Of a DNA stretch of 22,576 bases, positions 8,862 to 14,512 are shown piece by piece. Source of the DNA: a virus; the IMG/VR virus record IMGVR_UViG_3300012363_000023, positions 1 through 22,576 of that record. The stretch is one strand, 5' to 3'. A program made the position numbers and the translations under genes. Below the pieces are notes generated by a model that ran no database searches, was not told where the DNA came from, and saw nothing but the letters and a program-made list of their open reading frames with translations. The stretch's first letter is position 1; each line of letters opens with the position of its first letter.

Positions 8862-10109
8862 GGTGCAAGTTTCTCAGCTTCCGACGCTGCCTTTCTACTC
8901 AAAGAGTATTACGAATCTGATCTCCAGATCGCTGCTGATCTGATGTATGGTCAAGACGCTCACGTCCTTTTTCACCGGGTTGCAAAAAATACCAAGGTTG
9001 TTGGTAAGATAGTTCCAATCCCTGTTCGGTACGCCCCCGTGGCCGGTCGATCAGCGACTGCTGCGATTGCTGCTCAGAACGCACAGACCCTTCAAGGTTC
9101 TGCGTTTCAGTTGGCGATCAAGACCGACTACGATTTTGCGTACATCGATGGTCGGACGCTGAAACTGGCTGCGACTAACCAAGGTGCATTTCTTTTGGAT
9201 GCTGTTCCTATCGTTGACTCCGCTTGGTTGAAGGTCAGTCAATCGATTGCATCCTCGTTGTATCGGGATGGGTCAGGCTTCATCGGCCAAATCAGCACTA
9301 CGATCGCACCTAGTACAGGAGTTCTGACTCTTCAGAATCCTGGGGACGTGGTCAACTTCGAAATCAATGATGTCCTGGAAGCGGCGACGACTACGACCGG
9401 GTCTCCACGGGCTGCAAATGGTTTCGTGGTGAAGCGTGACGAATCTTCAGGAACTATCACAGTTTCCACTTCGTTTGGTGGAGCGCCAGCAACTCCAGCC
9501 AGTTGGACTACTGCCGACTTTTTGACGGTTCAAGGAGACAGGAATAACAAGTTCCCAGGTCTTCAAGGTTGGATTCCTACTACCGCTCCGACTACGGGTG
9601 ACAACTTCCAGTCTGTAGACCGAAGCGTCGATCCGACTCGTCTTGCAGGTAGCCGATATAACGCACAAGGTCAGAATATCGCTGAGGGGTTCATCGACGG
9701 TCTTGCGTTGGTCAATCGCTCAGGCGGTTTCCCGAACGAGGCTTACCTGAACCATGTTTCGTGGGCGGGTTTGGCGAAGTCTGAGACTGCGAAGATCTTC
9801 TACGACGAGCACAACCAGGACAAGGATGCGGTGATCTCTTTCCCGAGTTTCCGGATCCTCGCTGGCGGATCTAGCCTTCGAGTCTTTGCGGACAAGTCTC
9901 AACAGCAAGGGATTGCACATGCATTAGATATGCGTTCCTGGGAACTGCTGTCGGCCGGTGACGCTCCGCATGTTGCCGAGTTTGAAGACGACATGCACCA
10001 ATGGAATCGTGTGCCGGGGCAAGACTTTGCGCAGCTGATGCTGCGTGCGTATCTCACGTTAGGAACTTCTGCTCCGCGAAACAATCTTGTGATCCAACTG
10101 CCTCAGTAA
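8859..10109 (+). CDS. Major capsid protein
   Basis: The 416-residue product directly follows the scaffold gene and has segments I associate with HK97-fold capsid proteins of short-tailed phages. These are IPVRYAPVAGRSATAAIAAQ near residue 55, then LKVSQSIASSLYRDGSGFIGQI, then a beta-rich stretch ending TVQGDRNNKFPGLQGWIPT. The region of about residues 140-235 looks like an inserted or extended surface domain common in this capsid group. The start at 8859 is favoured over the ATG at 8849, which is out of frame and stops after 23 codons. GAGGGAT at 8844-8850 is the likely ribosome binding site. The start codon lies in a predicted hairpin. Confidence 0.85.
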   Translation: MGASFSASDAAFLLKEYYESDLQIAADLMYGQDAHVLFHRVAKNTKVVGKIVPIPVRYAPVAGRSATAAIAAQNAQTLQGSAFQLAIKTDYDFAYIDGRTLKLAATNQGAFLLDAVPIVDSAWLKVSQSIASSLYRDGSGFIGQISTTIAPSTGVLTLQNPGDVVNFEINDVLEAATTTTGSPRAANGFVVKRDESSGTITVSTSFGGAPATPASWTTADFLTVQGDRNNKFPGLQGWIPTTAPTTGDNFQSVDRSVDPTRLAGSRYNAQGQNIAEGFIDGLALVNRSGGFPNEAYLNHVSWAGLAKSETAKIFYDEHNQDKDAVISFPSFRILAGGSSLRVFADKSQQQGIAHALDMRSWELLSAGDAPHVAEFEDDMHQWNRVPGQDFAQLMLRAYLTLGTSAPRNNLVIQLPQ

Positions 10110-10135: not shown

Positions 10136-10903
10136 ATGGGTGATCGTCGTTGGAACCTGGTGTCGTACCACCTTGAGCCTAACAAGGCTACGGTGTTCTG
10201 CCAATTCACTGTTGGAGCCGTGGGCGCTCCAACATTGATGCAGTACAACTACAAGACGGGTCTCTATACTGCCGCTCCTACCCCTGGTGCTACGAACACT
10301 TTTGGCATCCAGGCTGGAGCTCGCGGCGTCCTATCTATCGTTCGAAATTCGACCGGAAACTACACACTCAAACTTCAGCAATCTTTCACCAGATTCCTCC
10401 AAGGATTGGTGGCATATAAGACTCTGGGGACCTCGGTCTATCCAGATACAACTTTCCCATTCCCCGAATCTACGATTCGTCTTCCAGTCAGTTCGTTTAC
10501 GACCAATGCGCAAAGTGGAACGGTCACGATTTCGACCATCACTGAATCCGGAAACACAGTCACGGTTACTACCGGAAGTGCTCCTAGTCCCGCGTTCGCA
10601 GTTGGCCAACTGGTACAAATCTCTGGAGCGAACATCACAGGTCCTGTTGTCACTGGATTGGCGGCCTACAATGGCGTGTACACAATCACGTCGGTGATCA
10701 GCACGACATCCTTTACGTATACTTGTCCGGAGAATGGCCTAGCGGCCGGTACGGCGGCGGGAACAGCCCAAATCCTGGCGGGCTCTCCCGGACCGTTCTT
10801 GACCATGCAATTCTTGAATCCTACGACGGGTGCGGCCATCGAACTGGCGAACGGCGATATTGCAGATGTGGAGCTTGACCTCGGCATTGGGTCTGGGACG
10901 TAA
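10136..10903 (+). CDS. Virion protein with inserted beta module, copy 1
   Basis: The 255-residue product begins MGDRRWNLVSYHLEPNKATV and continues FCQFTVGAVGAPTL and GARGVLSIVRNSTGNYTLKL. It closes with PFLTMQFLNPTTGAAIELANGDIADVELDLG. The two flanks together resemble a capsid-cluster protein of about 170 residues known from related phages, without a set function. Residues about 128-213 interrupt it with a beta-rich module (ISTITESGNTVTVTTGSAP, VGQLVQISGA, AAYNGVYTITSVISTTSFTY) that recurs in two other genes here. A head decoration role is plausible from position. The upstream ATG at 10132 is rejected because it stops after three codons. Confidence 0.65.
   Translation: MGDRRWNLVSYHLEPNKATVFCQFTVGAVGAPTLMQYNYKTGLYTAAPTPGATNTFGIQAGARGVLSIVRNSTGNYTLKLQQSFTRFLQGLVAYKTLGTSVYPDTTFPFPESTIRLPVSSFTTNAQSGTVTISTITESGNTVTVTTGSAPSPAFAVGQLVQISGANITGPVVTGLAAYNGVYTITSVISTTSFTYTCPENGLAAGTAAGTAQILAGSPGPFLTMQFLNPTTGAAIELANGDIADVELDLGIGSGT
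10517..10774 (+). repeat. Beta module insertion, copy 1
   Basis: Residues 128-213 of the 10136 protein: ISTIT, NTVTVTT, VGQLVQISG, AAYNGVYTITSV, STTSFTYT and a final GTAAGTAQ. The same order of elements occurs at 11219-11482 and 13309-13539. It looks like a small Ig-like or fibronectin-like beta sandwich, judged by eye. Nucleotide similarity between the copies is low, so they are not a recent duplication. Confidence 0.6.
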
Positions 10904-10906
10904 TTC

Positions 10907-11590
10907 ATGGCTGTTACTGGAACCATCGCATTGAGTGCTTCGGTTATCCAAGCGAACCAACCGTTCGGAGTGGTCCTTTCCCTCGCGAACGGTGGAGCTC
11001 AGCCGGTGAACGTGCTGTCGATTACTCCTCGGATTCAATCCACACCGTTGAATGCGACTCCAGCAGCAGTTCCGGGGTTTTCTGGACAGCCAAATGGCCC
11101 CGCTACGAACATGTCAATAGCCGGCGGTGCGACGAATACGTACAACTACTTAGACATCATCCATGGTCCATTCATCAAGACGGGTCTTGCGAATGATTTG
11201 ACTCCCCAGTTGACGGCTATTGGTATCACTTCGATCACGCAAGTCGGCAACTTGTGTACAGTCACTACATCTAGCACGCATGGCTTCCCGACGACCGTCC
11301 CCGGTCCCGGACAGGGTCTAGTTGTTAACATCACTGGAAATACGATCAGTGGGTCTGTTCCGATCGTTCCAGCTGGCTACAATGGTATCTTTTCGGTTGT
11401 GGCAGTTCCTAGCACCACGACCTTCACTTTCAACGCTCCGACGCCCAATCAAGCTGCTGGCGGAGCTGCTGGAACTTGCCAACTGATGGGCGGTTGGGTC
11501 TATGCAATCGACGCTTATGTCACCTTCTCCGACGGCACTAGCATCTTTGCTACTGCTACGAATGTTACAGTCTTGGCACCGACTTTCTAG
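10907..11590 (+). CDS. Ig-like virion protein with beta module, copy 2
   Basis: The 227-residue product begins GTIALSASVIQANQPFGVVLSLANGGAQPVNVLSI, split by eye into Ig-like strands ('F.VVLslaN.G..PVNVLsI'). It ends AIDAYVTFSDGTSIFATATNVTVL. Both ends align with the next protein, which is a shorter paralogue. Residues about 105-192 carry the beta module (ITSITQVGNLCTVTTSST, GLVVNITG, AGYNGIFSVVAVPSTTTFTF). A virion surface or decoration role is inferred from composition and position between the capsid and connector genes. Start at the ATG at 10907, three bases after the previous stop. Confidence 0.65.
   Translation: MAVTGTIALSASVIQANQPFGVVLSLANGGAQPVNVLSITPRIQSTPLNATPAAVPGFSGQPNGPATNMSIAGGATNTYNYLDIIHGPFIKTGLANDLTPQLTAIGITSITQVGNLCTVTTSSTHGFPTTVPGPGQGLVVNITGNTISGSVPIVPAGYNGIFSVVAVPSTTTFTFNAPTPNQAAGGAAGTCQLMGGWVYAIDAYVTFSDGTSIFATATNVTVLAPTF
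11219..11482 (+). repeat. Beta module insertion, copy 2
   Basis: Residues 105-192 of the 10907 protein hold the module in the order ITSITQVGN, CTVTTSS, GLVVNITG, AGYNGIFSVVAVPSTTTFTF and GGAAGTCQL. It has an extra Pro/Gly loop (TTVPGPGQG) compared with the other two copies. The neighbouring paralogue at 11594 has no such segment. Confidence 0.6.
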
Positions 11591-11593
11591 GTT

Positions 11594-12130
11594 ATGGCAA
11601 TCACGGCTACTCTCAGTGTCGATCGGGATAGTATCACGGCTGGGTTGTCGTGTCGTTTCACTCTTGTCGTGGCAAATACCGGCACTTCTCCGGTAAACAT
11701 CCTCGACATTGCTACGACTGATCTAAGTTCGAACTCCACGATAATGGCGGAAGATGGTTCTCGTACGGCTTTGGCGATGGGTCAGACTGGTTTTGCTCCA
11801 TCCAGTTCGGTAGCGTCTCAAACGAAGCAAGTTCCGGCTAGCGGATCGGTAACTCTGGGTTGGGCAAGCACATATTTCAGTGGACCCCAAGGTCCTAGAA
11901 ATGCGTCACAACCCTCAAGTTTCTCGACTGGCGTGATTGTTAGGACCGATGATGGGTCTGTGACTGCTAGCAACACTTTGACGATCGCGTGTTCTCCAGC
12001 ATTCGATTTCAACACCGGTGTTCAATCGGGAGCATACCCACAGTTGCCAGTAGTCGGTCAGGGAAGGTTTGATCTGAACATCACAGGCAGTCCAATGGTT
12101 GCAGTGCTATTTCCGGGGGCGCCCGCGTAA
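11594..12130 (+). CDS. Ig-like virion protein (paralogue without module)
   Basis: The 178-residue product begins MAITATLSVDRDSITAGLSC and then RFTLVVANTGTSPVNILDI, clearly like the start of the preceding gene. The later STGVIVRTDDGSVTASNTLTI matches that gene's VTFSDGTSIFATATNVTVL. It has no copy of the inserted module, so the pair gives a with/without comparison. The C-terminal 40 residues (FNTGVQSGAYPQLPVVGQGR and beyond) are not in the neighbour. A structural or decoration role is inferred from its place and its strand-rich composition. The start lies three bases after the previous TAG. Confidence 0.65.
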   Translation: MAITATLSVDRDSITAGLSCRFTLVVANTGTSPVNILDIATTDLSSNSTIMAEDGSRTALAMGQTGFAPSSSVASQTKQVPASGSVTLGWASTYFSGPQGPRNASQPSSFSTGVIVRTDDGSVTASNTLTIACSPAFDFNTGVQSGAYPQLPVVGQGRFDLNITGSPMVAVLFPGAPA

Positions 12131-12156
12131 TGCGTCAAATAAGGTAGGTCAAGAAT

Positions 12157-12741
12157 ATGGGAATGACAGTAGGCGATAAATCAGGCAATCCGGTAGTTCT
12201 GGCGCACTCCACGTCTGACCCGGTCTTCTCAGCAGCTTTCAGTGTTCCGGCGGCTCAATACGCGGCTGGAGTGCTAGTCTCGTTTACGGGGGCGGCGGGG
12301 TTTGTCACTCGGATCAAGTGGATCAAATTGACGCTTAGAGCTGGGAGCGTGGCAAACGCGACGCAGAATGTGACTCTTGAGCGACGTTCTACTGCTACCA
12401 CGGGTGGAGCAACTACGGCTACCACGACCACGCTTAGCAAAAATGATCCAGTTAACGACATTACGACACAGCAGACAACGGTTACGCATTATTACAACGC
12501 AACCCCGTCGGCACCTACGGCAGGCACGTTGACTGCCACCATGCGGACTGAACCATTAGCTGCTACGGGGGCAACAACTGACGCCACCAACACGGTTGTT
12601 GAGTGGAACTTTACGACTCGTGGTGAGAAACCAATTACTCTCCGAGGTACTTCTGACTTCGTGACTTTGTCTCTTTCGAATGCCCTTTCGACTGCTCAGA
12701 CTCTTGGGGTCGAGTACACGTTCGAAGAGGCAACGACCTAG
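12157..12741 (+). CDS. Thr-rich beta virion protein, hypothetical
   Basis: The 194-residue product is rich in T and A, with strands such as PVFSAAFSVPAAQYAAGVLV, FVTRIKWIKLTLRAG and WNFTTRGEKPITLRGTSDFV. The composition and position after the capsid cluster suggest a virion component. I do not recognise a family. GGTAGG at 12143-12148 is a fair ribosome binding site for the ATG at 12157; the second ATG at 12163 is also possible. There are no cysteines, membrane segments or catalytic motifs. Confidence 0.6.
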   Translation: MGMTVGDKSGNPVVLAHSTSDPVFSAAFSVPAAQYAAGVLVSFTGAAGFVTRIKWIKLTLRAGSVANATQNVTLERRSTATTGGATTATTTTLSKNDPVNDITTQQTTVTHYYNATPSAPTAGTLTATMRTEPLAATGATTDATNTVVEWNFTTRGEKPITLRGTSDFVTLSLSNALSTAQTLGVEYTFEEATT

Positions 12742-12758
12742 TTAGTTGGAGCCCCTTG

Positions 12759-13001
12759 ATGCACCCAGCGCTACAGGTCATACTGCAACACAGTCCCACC
12801 GGACGGAAGATGGCTGAAGGTGGGATGATGGATGGTGGGGACGACGGCGAACAGATGCCGAGCGGTCTTCATGAGATTGCTTCAGAGCTAATCGAAGCCG
12901 TCCATATGAAGGATCCTGTGAGAGTTGCTGAGTGCCTCGAAGATGCGTTCGAGATGCTTGAGGCGATGCCACACGACGAGGCACCGCACGAGGAAGAGTA
13001 G
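12759..13001 (+). CDS. Small acidic helical protein, 80 aa
   Basis: I start at the ATG at 12759, seven bases after GGAG (12748-12751), rather than at the in-frame TTG just before it. The front has a Gly/Met/Asp-rich loop, EGGMMDGGDDGEQMPS. Two helices follow: LHEIASELIEAVHMKDPVRV and AECLEDAFEMLEAMPHDEAP. This resembles small acidic phage proteins with 'a..li.Avh.kD...va.aL...fe' located before connector genes. The function is unknown. A head-completion or chaperone-like role is only a guess from size and charge. Confidence 0.6.
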   Translation: MHPALQVILQHSPTGRKMAEGGMMDGGDDGEQMPSGLHEIASELIEAVHMKDPVRVAECLEDAFEMLEAMPHDEAPHEEE

Positions 13002-13011
13002 GCCGTCTAAA
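12998..13011 (+). repeat. Junction motif GTAGGCCGTCTAAA, copy 1
   Basis: This 14-base sequence covers the stop codon of the 12759 gene and the first bases of the gap. An identical copy lies at 18772-18785 in the same position relative to a stop codon and the next start. Shorter CGTCTAAA matches occur at 900, 8316 and 8572. Confidence 0.4.
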
Positions 13012-13026
13012 CTGTAGAGGTGTTGG

Positions 13027-14052
13027 ATGGCTTTACTCCCGGGGCAGACCAATTTAAGCGGTATCAGAACCACAGTTCGACAGCGGACGGATAAGGTCAA
13101 TTCTCAGTTCGTCACTGACCCCGAACTGAATGGTTTCATCAACAGTTCGATTCAAGAGTTGTACGACCTCCTAATCGGGGCGTATGGGGAAGATTATTTT
13201 AGTCAGATCCCCCCTTACTTGATTACGACCGACGGGGTCAATGACAAATATAACCTGCCCGATGGTTCTAGTATATATATGTTGCCGTTGCCAGCAGGTG
13301 GCGTTGTTCCCATTAGTACTATTACAAATGCGACACAGTCCGGTACTTTAGTAACCATCACCACGGATACAGTCGCCCATCTTTTGAACGCTGGGCAGTT
13401 GGTTACAATTTCAGGCGTAGGAACTGCCGGATACAATGGTACATTTCCCATCACATCCGTACCGACTGCAACAACTTTGACGTACAACACCACATCGGGG
13501 TTGGCTACGGATACGAGTGGAGGAACGGCAAAGGTGACAGCGACTCCGTTCTACAAGTTGATCGGAGTGGATCATCAGATCGTTGGGGTACCTGGCGCTC
13601 CGAACGGCATCTATGACCGTGTTCAGCGTTTCAAGATGGCAGAGAGGAATCAATACACCTTTCCAATCTGGACGAACCACTGGTACGGGAACATTGTTCT
13701 GAAGTACCATCTACAGAACACTAACCCGGCTCAACTTTGGATCATTCCTCTGCCTCCCGGAGGCAGGACGATTCGAGTGTTGTACGCCCCCCGGTTTGTT
13801 CCCTTGGTTAACGACGTTGACGTGTTCGACGGCATTAACGGCTGGGAAGAGTACGTGGTCGCTGATGTGATGATCAAAGTTCTTCAGAAAGAAGAGTCGG
13901 ACGTGTCTGTACCGGTTGCGATTAAACGAGACCTGTTGGAGCGCATCAAGGACATCGCAGATACGCGAGACATTGGTAGTCCATCAACGGTTGTAGATGT
14001 CTATCGATCTGACTTCCCCGGATTCGGATTTGATCATGGCGCTTGGAAGTGA
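13027..14052 (+). CDS. Head-tail connector/adaptor protein with inserted beta module
   Basis: The 341-residue product begins with an adaptor-type region: VRQRTDKVNSQFVTDPELNG, FINSSIQELYDLLIGAYGED. It ends with LYAPRFVPLVNDVDVFDGIN, GWEEYVVADVMIKVLQKEES and ERIKDIADTRDIGSPSTVVDV. This pattern is familiar from podovirus proteins joining portal and tail. In the form I know, 'Y.LP.dFykLlGVd' runs without a break. Here KYNLPDG (74-80) and PFYKLIGVDHQI (174-185) are separated by about 93 residues, most of which is the beta module (about 95-171). Two PLPxGG loops (86-92 and 241-246) are curious. It is followed directly by the fibre genes. Confidence 0.75.
   Translation: MALLPGQTNLSGIRTTVRQRTDKVNSQFVTDPELNGFINSSIQELYDLLIGAYGEDYFSQIPPYLITTDGVNDKYNLPDGSSIYMLPLPAGGVVPISTITNATQSGTLVTITTDTVAHLLNAGQLVTISGVGTAGYNGTFPITSVPTATTLTYNTTSGLATDTSGGTAKVTATPFYKLIGVDHQIVGVPGAPNGIYDRVQRFKMAERNQYTFPIWTNHWYGNIVLKYHLQNTNPAQLWIIPLPPGGRTIRVLYAPRFVPLVNDVDVFDGINGWEEYVVADVMIKVLQKEESDVSVPVAIKRDLLERIKDIADTRDIGSPSTVVDVYRSDFPGFGFDHGAWK
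13309..13539 (+). repeat. Beta module insertion, copy 3
   Basis: Residues 95-171 of the connector protein: PISTITNATQSGTLVTITTD, AGQLVTISGV, AGYNGTFPITSVPTATTLTY and DTSGGTAKVT. This is the cleanest copy and the closest to copy 1. It falls between YNLPDG and PFYKLIGVD, which would adjoin in a form without it. Confidence 0.65.
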
Positions 14053-14062
14053 GTATTACTAG

Positions 14063-14512
14063 GTGGCTACACGAGACCTCCAGAAGATTCTGGTCGAAAA
14101 GTTGGACGACGTAAATCGCATGCAAGACGCATGGATCGCCGTGCTTCGACCATTCTTGAAGTCTGCACCTGCATCTACGACCTCGTGGATCAATGTCGGT
14201 AGTTCAGGAGCGCCGATGTTCCAGAACAGTTGGGTAAACTTTGATACGACTAGGACTGCTGGATTCAGCAAAGACAGCCTGGGATGGGTCCGGCTTAGAG
14301 GTGTAGTTAAATCTGGAACTGTTAGCTCGACTATTTTTACCCTACCCACAGGATTTAGACCGAAGCGGAGTATGACTTTCGTAGGCGACAGTAACAACGC
14401 GTATCAAACTGTAGGAGTAAATTTGAACGGAAACGTTTTTCAAGGAACCTCGGCCGGAGCCAGTAATGCTTGGCAATTCTTAGATGGGATTCACTTCTTA
14501 GCAGAGAACTAA
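14063..14512 (+). CDS. Tail-fibre/appendage-type protein, 149 aa
   Basis: The product starts at a GTG ten bases after the previous stop, with only a weak ribosome binding site. A helical front (ATRDLQKILVEKLDDVNRMQDAW, seen in parts) leads into a C-terminal beta domain. That domain carries WINVGSSGAPMFQNSWVNFD, FSKDSLGWVRLRGVVKSGTV and FTLPTGFRPKRSM. From memory, 'W..vG..GaP.FqNsWvN' and 'kDslGwV.LRG.ikSGt' is a widespread module at the ends of phage fibre proteins. Here it is a short free-standing protein, followed after three bases by a larger fibre gene. The two may assemble together. Confidence 0.7.
   Translation: MATRDLQKILVEKLDDVNRMQDAWIAVLRPFLKSAPASTTSWINVGSSGAPMFQNSWVNFDTTRTAGFSKDSLGWVRLRGVVKSGTVSSTIFTLPTGFRPKRSMTFVGDSNNAYQTVGVNLNGNVFQGTSAGASNAWQFLDGIHFLAEN

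Follow-up and report, generated by a model that had tools for sequence, protein, structure and literature searches.

A single protein module of about 75-95 residues is present in exactly three proteins encoded by the window, i.e. the whole analysed stretch of 22,576 bases of the virus record IMGVR_UViG_3300012363_000023, with profile E-values ranging from 8e-22 to 2e-27. The three proteins (hereafter host proteins A, B and C) are unrelated to one another, and relatives of every one of them lack the module, which indicates from comparison of their sequences that the three segments are insertions. The best explanation of these observations and those described below, to which as a whole a probability of roughly 0.6 can be given, is that the module is one small β-barrel of the endosialidase-barrel or E1-FCCH kind, placed in-frame in loops of the three proteins as an exposed add-on for contact or bracing, and that it represents a general insertable unit of tailed-phage virion proteins in the role that Ig-like domains have elsewhere.

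Genomic setting of the host proteins

The window displays the usual gene order of a short-tailed phage on the + strand (Table 1), the identities of genes other than that of the adaptor having been read from size, sequence and order. Host proteins A and B are probably virion parts, as they are placed there by the position of their genes between those for the capsid and the adaptor. The first 39 residues of protein B are a weak paralogue of the 11594 protein.

Table 1. Genes and inserted modules of the window (a single number gives the start of a gene)
Feature	Position	Strand	Description
Small protein	3093	+	
Large terminase	3515	+	
Portal	5660	+	
Scaffold-like protein	7788	+	
Major capsid protein	8859	+	
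Host protein A	10136..10903	+	255 aa; immediately 3' of the major capsid gene
Module copy A	10520..10783	+	Protein A residues about 129-216; profile match 10520-10765, E 7.7e-22
Host protein B	10907..11593	+	227 aa, β-rich
Inserted block with copy B	11210..11497	+	Residues 102-197; empty site in L127; profile match 11216-11476, E 7.4e-23
11594 protein	11594..12130	+	Module-free neighbour; N-terminus similar to protein B
12157 protein	12157	+	
12756 protein	12756	+	
Host protein C	13027..14052	+	Head-tail adaptor, SU10/N4/GP4 short-tail type; Pfam SU10_adaptor and Foldseek
Copy C insertion	13264..13545	+	Residues 80-173 (94), between YNLPD and PFYKLIGVD; profile match 13315-13527, E 2.5e-27
14063 protein	14063..14512	+	
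14516 protein	14516	+	
Nozzle-like protein	15701	+	
Two internal proteins		+	After the nozzle-like protein

Certain other features of the window can be placed alongside these genes. Positions 27-293 hold Arg-, Gly- and Glu-rich repeats (RGGERGGE...) that look like a tandem array of low complexity at the end of the contig, possibly an assembly edge. In the ORF at 444-890, 5' of the structural genes, the C-terminal part resembles by eye the DNA-binding region of serine recombinases (RGEYCGGQVPYGS...). The short protein encoded immediately downstream of the adaptor (14063-14512) matches the C-termini of long minor tail proteins from several PHROG families (best E 3.7e-12), and may represent a stand-alone fibre tip domain. 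A search with the capsid protein against 297 Acidobacteriota genomes, run without a positive control, gave zero matches.

One module in three proteins

The profile with which the whole 22.6 kb window was searched comprised 17 modules, the three copies of the window among them, and it recovered these three copies and no others; a check of the capsid protein and the nozzle-like protein likewise revealed no hidden copy. Pairwise local alignments of the full host proteins scored 169, 142 and 103, as against maxima of 95, 73 and 66 in 500 shuffles, and the aligned parts approximately coincide with the segments claimed earlier. The original prediction of one element of about 80 residues in the 10136, 10907 and 13027 proteins is thus borne out by the local scores and by the profile search that it had proposed as a check; the order of motifs that it gave along the element is also correct, with the full inserted blocks being slightly longer than 80 residues. 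These blocks measure about 88 residues in A, about 96 in B and 94 in C, where the insertion consists of an 18-residue linker (included in the 94), the module and a short tail. The copies are 40-47% identical to each other in protein and about 47-52% in nucleotide sequence, in keeping with the strong nucleotide difference noticed at the outset. Copy A possesses an extra loop (ANITGPVVTGLA) before the YNG motif, and a longer loop at this point is common to copies A and B. Elsewhere in the window, the capsid protein contains a β-rich stretch (9300-9560; VGQISTTIAPSTGVLTLQNPGD...GTITVSTSFGG) with the look of an inserted domain, for which profile similarity to the module was absent.

Filled and empty insertion sites

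For the site in the adaptor, 56 loci encoding adaptor relatives were fetched and 41 were inspected across the insertion site, with L049 (module in a different protein) and L013 (truncated) being excluded. The insert was absent in all 38 other informative homologues and present only in L001 (87% identical). In 26 of the 27 module-free homologues displayed, a YxLPx stretch or a divergent equivalent leads directly into the DFYKL stretch, as expected from the earlier claim that YNLPDG and PFYKLIGVD, which are split in the window, are contiguous in relatives; the adaptor of L004 has seven extra residues at this site. The homologue of protein B in the contig L127 is module-free and only 133 residues long, and excision of the inserted block from protein B raised its global alignment score to this homologue from 174 to 242 with a gapless join. 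In the same contig the homologue of A is filled with the module while that of B is empty. Other contigs encode phage homologues of A of 129-173 residues, versus 255 in the window, which are without the module; the exact boundary of insertion A is less certain because the matches listed for these homologues are weak (E 1e-5 to 1e-1). Sites A, B and C all have empty-site relatives, as had been predicted for true insertions. The contrary reading, raised together with that prediction, in which the segments belong to the ordinary conserved sequence of each family, has next to no probability, as only their presence in L001 speaks for it and it is already contradicted by homologues of all three proteins without the segments. 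As filled and empty sites are so cleanly distinguished among close relatives, gain, copying and loss of the module become directly testable.

The 34 kb record of L001 carries the same three copies and no others. Between it and the window, dN is 0.027-0.167 across the three modules and dS is high or saturated, a saturation that precludes exact dN/dS ratios; the low dN against such dS suggests that the modules are maintained for a use. In the same comparison 25% of the residues differ in copy C versus 8.5% in its host protein (p 2e-4), while copies A and B show the same conservation as their host proteins.

Fold and family of the module

Pfam searches with the 17 module members recovered E1_FCCH (PF16190) in nine and End_beta_barrel (PF12195) in six of them, with a best E of 3.2e-8. 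All window copies fall below the curated cut-offs of both families: copy C scores 17.6 bits against PF16190 within the whole protein and 21.2 bits alone (E 3e-4; cut-off 29.5 bits), and the 35 bits of PF12195 are reached by none of them, with the nearest relative, L097, scoring 34.6 bits. The module in baseplate J of the Pantoea phage PdC23 lies above the PF16190 cut-off (56.1 bits, E 3.9e-15).

The AlphaFold model of protein A has a pLDDT of about 70-88 in most blocks of the module and is poor over the rest of the protein, and that of protein C has a good adaptor core and a weakly modelled module (pLDDT 38-51). Alignments in which fragments of the module were combined with module-free homologues were misaligned and were kept out of the folding. 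In a Foldseek comparison of the protein A model with the PDB, the five best matches were endosialidases (endoNF and phi92; E 6e-4 to 8e-4, probability 1.00), in long alignments of high rmsd that extend over poorly modelled parts of the protein. Next came the FCCH domain of Uba6 and Uba1, with rmsd of roughly 2.8-4 Å over about 90-96 columns (2.8-3.1 over about 95 columns for Uba6). The low query-normalised TM-scores and the high rmsd to the endosialidases arise because most of protein A is unmodelled. The model of copy A matches both the FCCH barrel fold and the endosialidase β-barrel fold; a barrel is thus supported by the model for copy A, and is predicted by homology for copies B and C.

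The original prediction had termed the module Ig-like. This label was dropped, since the model of copy A resembles endosialidase and E1-FCCH barrels rather than Ig sandwiches, the Pfam hits include no Ig family and no Ig domain is named among the PDB matches listed for copy A. The Pfam name E1_FCCH merely reflects the first place where the domain was described. The conserved GYNG motif of the module is also found in eukaryotic Uba1, whose FCCH barrel is not known to act as a lectin; as YNG is shared with Uba1, its conservation points to the fold and gives no hint of a binding site. A search of the open-access literature found no relevant paper on FCCH-type domains in phages.

The adaptor and its inserted module

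Host protein C scores 28.5 bits against SU10_adaptor (PF24175), above the cut-off of 27, and its model recovered the SU10 tail chain 7z47_B with a Foldseek E of 1.3e-5, in addition to 8jov, 9nwi, 8zkk and 9lc0, the adaptor core matching tail structures of SU10, GP4, Pa223, VP1 and N4. A sequence search of the PDB with the adaptor profile gave no match, whereas the fold search did. By its profile score and fold, protein C is a SU10-type head-tail adaptor, and the gene order fits a dodecamer that would sit between portal and nozzle and carry the tail fibres. The SU10 adaptor, gp11, forms a dodecamer in which a helix bundle, a fibre-dock domain and an embracing loop are distinguished (PMC9509320). 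The insert of C lies after the helix bundle, in a β-rich stretch that by analogy should correspond to the SU10 fibre-dock domain, and because it falls in this presumed dock domain, twelve extra barrels would be expected by the fibre attachment zone. The insertion in the adaptor ring points to an addition next to the region where tail fibres are expected to dock.

Distribution of the barrel beyond the window

Three copies each were found in two unrelated phages, the Pantoea phage PdC23 (Certevirus) and the Yersinia phage vB_YenM_29.18, the third being weak in the latter. Those of PdC23 reside in a protein encoded 5' of the capsid gene, in the tail sheath (phrog_205) and in baseplate J; the pre-capsid protein has 290 residues, yet matches a 211-residue family. 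PdC23 pdc_05 (L131:5303-6172), which adjoins the capsid gene and contains one barrel copy, is annotated as an 'endosialidase'; a Pfam search found no enzyme domain in it, and the barrel may explain the annotation. More generally, phage structural proteins with odd database labels such as 'endosialidase' or ubiquitin-E1 may merely contain the barrel. Viral structure matches include tail fibres, baseplate J and wedge, tail sheath, neck and the K1E tailspike. A tblastn search of named phage records with copy A gave no direct match, and copy C found 43 records at E up to 1.

Bacterial occurrences include prophage-like nozzle proteins, as well as a di-haem oxidoreductase and a multicopper oxidase of Acidobacteriota, both enzymes having module-free relatives in the same phylum. 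Barrel-bearing proteins of the di-haem oxidoreductase family (DHOR) are encoded in Acidobacteriota at L114:1006-2619, L124:976-2622 and L098:3230-5050, with the barrel situated between the first CxxCH region and the next conserved core. An acidobacterial multicopper-oxidase-like protein (L099:104-2089) carries a barrel that is missing in its 58-64% identical relatives L160, L161 and L166. At E 1e-5 the module matched 11 of 149 Acidobacteriota genomes, with 1-4 copies per matching genome, and on account of these numbers a high-copy in-frame repeat akin to the Rickettsia palindromic elements was ruled out.

The mobility that had been proposed for the module hence holds in a wider sense, given its presence in PdC23 proteins and in Acidobacteriota enzymes with empty-site relatives. 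These occurrences mark the barrel as a reusable, mobile surface domain that is also found in tail parts of other phages and in secreted enzymes of soil bacteria. A more far-reaching and rather doubtful version of this would be a travelling insert domain common to phages and their bacterial hosts, exchanged as a surface add-on, probably for attachment to shared polysaccharides, with the same unit inserted in-frame at loops in at least six unrelated virion protein types and at least two families of secreted redox enzymes of Acidobacteriota. It is improbable that the barrels are near-neutral passengers, tolerated in loops, spread by chance recombination and retained because clean deletion is rare. 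Their presence in many unrelated proteins including redox enzymes, their loop positions and the few copies per bacterial genome would be in line with such passengers, but the dN of all three copies, which is low while their dS is high or saturated, and the retention of the same three copies in L001 argue against them.

History of the copies

In a tree of 48 modules built on 73 columns, copies A and B grouped with the A-copy of L127 (support 0.96), and copy C was placed, with moderate support, nearer to the copies from Acidobacteriota and prophages. Given this grouping and the extra loop that they have in common, one of A and B was probably copied from the other, in an event between neighbouring genes, with C having a separate origin. 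The earlier proposal that the copies are old or independently acquired therefore probably does not hold for all three of them. As the B site is empty in L127, the simplest account is that A came first and that B was later copied from it. Under this order of gains, which is drawn from the sequence comparisons, copy A would have been present before the split of the window lineage from L127, copy B would have been gained by the adjacent gene after that split, probably from A, and copy C would have been acquired from a pool that also supplied the Acidobacteriota and their prophages.

Functional implications

The module is inserted in loops of unrelated folds, is optional and is under sequence constraint, all of which fits a self-folding exposed add-on, and the barrel is most likely one that serves contact or stabilisation. 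Every barrel would fold independently at its loop, leaving the fold of its host undisturbed, and would be displayed in many copies on the particle, with 12 on the adaptor ring provided that its geometry is that of SU10. The extra contact surface could provide weak binding to glycans of the envelope or the environment, or could brace adjacent virion parts; glycan contact and bracing appear about as likely as each other.

Glycan binding is plausible from the precedent of the endosialidases, the closest solved barrels, in which one of three polysialic-acid binding sites is located in the barrel and discrimination between hosts is steered by the barrel loops (PMC12632334). It is possible, if tentatively so, that the barrels are lectins for polysaccharides of the host envelope or the environment that raise the rate of productive encounters, as several relatives of the module occur in fibres and tailspikes and copy C evolves at about twice the rate of its host protein, as would an adapting contact surface. 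The Ig domains of T4 Hoc reportedly have a similar encounter-raising role with mucin. However, conserved surface binding residues are not evident in the module, whose conserved positions look structural, with YNG recurring in Uba1; copies A and B are conserved equally to their hosts; and tail sheath, baseplate J and redox enzymes form no obvious lectin pattern. That the barrels are structural braces, filling the spaces between subunits of the capsid, neck and tail and stiffening the particle with no outside binding, merits the same degree of caution. The location of the A, B and C genes between the capsid and nozzle-like genes, the copies in load-bearing parts of PdC23 (tail sheath and baseplate J) and the equal constraint on A and B and their hosts are consistent with bracing; yet every site is optional, with most homologous phages being without the insertion, and copy C is more variable than its host.

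Comparison with known systems

Ig-like domains provide the textbook example of how tailed-phage particles are decorated in a modular way, and the preferred reading of the barrel as an exposed, insertable add-on would imply that a second, unrelated fold acts like them. Both are small β-domains on unrelated virion proteins and are often optional, but the phage Ig-like domains, of which T4 Hoc is an example (PMC10385173), are Ig sandwiches, whereas the module described here is a predicted barrel placed within its host proteins. The adaptor of the window differs from SU10 gp11 (PF24175, PMC9509320) by the 94-residue barrel insertion after the helix bundle. The barrel of PF12195 (endoNF, 1v0e/3ju4; phi92, 4hiz) is likewise a β-barrel domain of a virion protein and is the top structural match of copy A, but the window copies, which score below its cut-off, reside in an adaptor and in proteins near the head instead of a tailspike enzyme. 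Similarly, E1_FCCH (PF16190), the barrel of the first catalytic cysteine half-domain in ubiquitin E1, shares with the module its fold, as in Uba6 and Uba1, and the GYNG motif, and includes the baseplate J relative above its cut-off, whereas the copies of the window occur in a virion setting with no ubiquitin chemistry.
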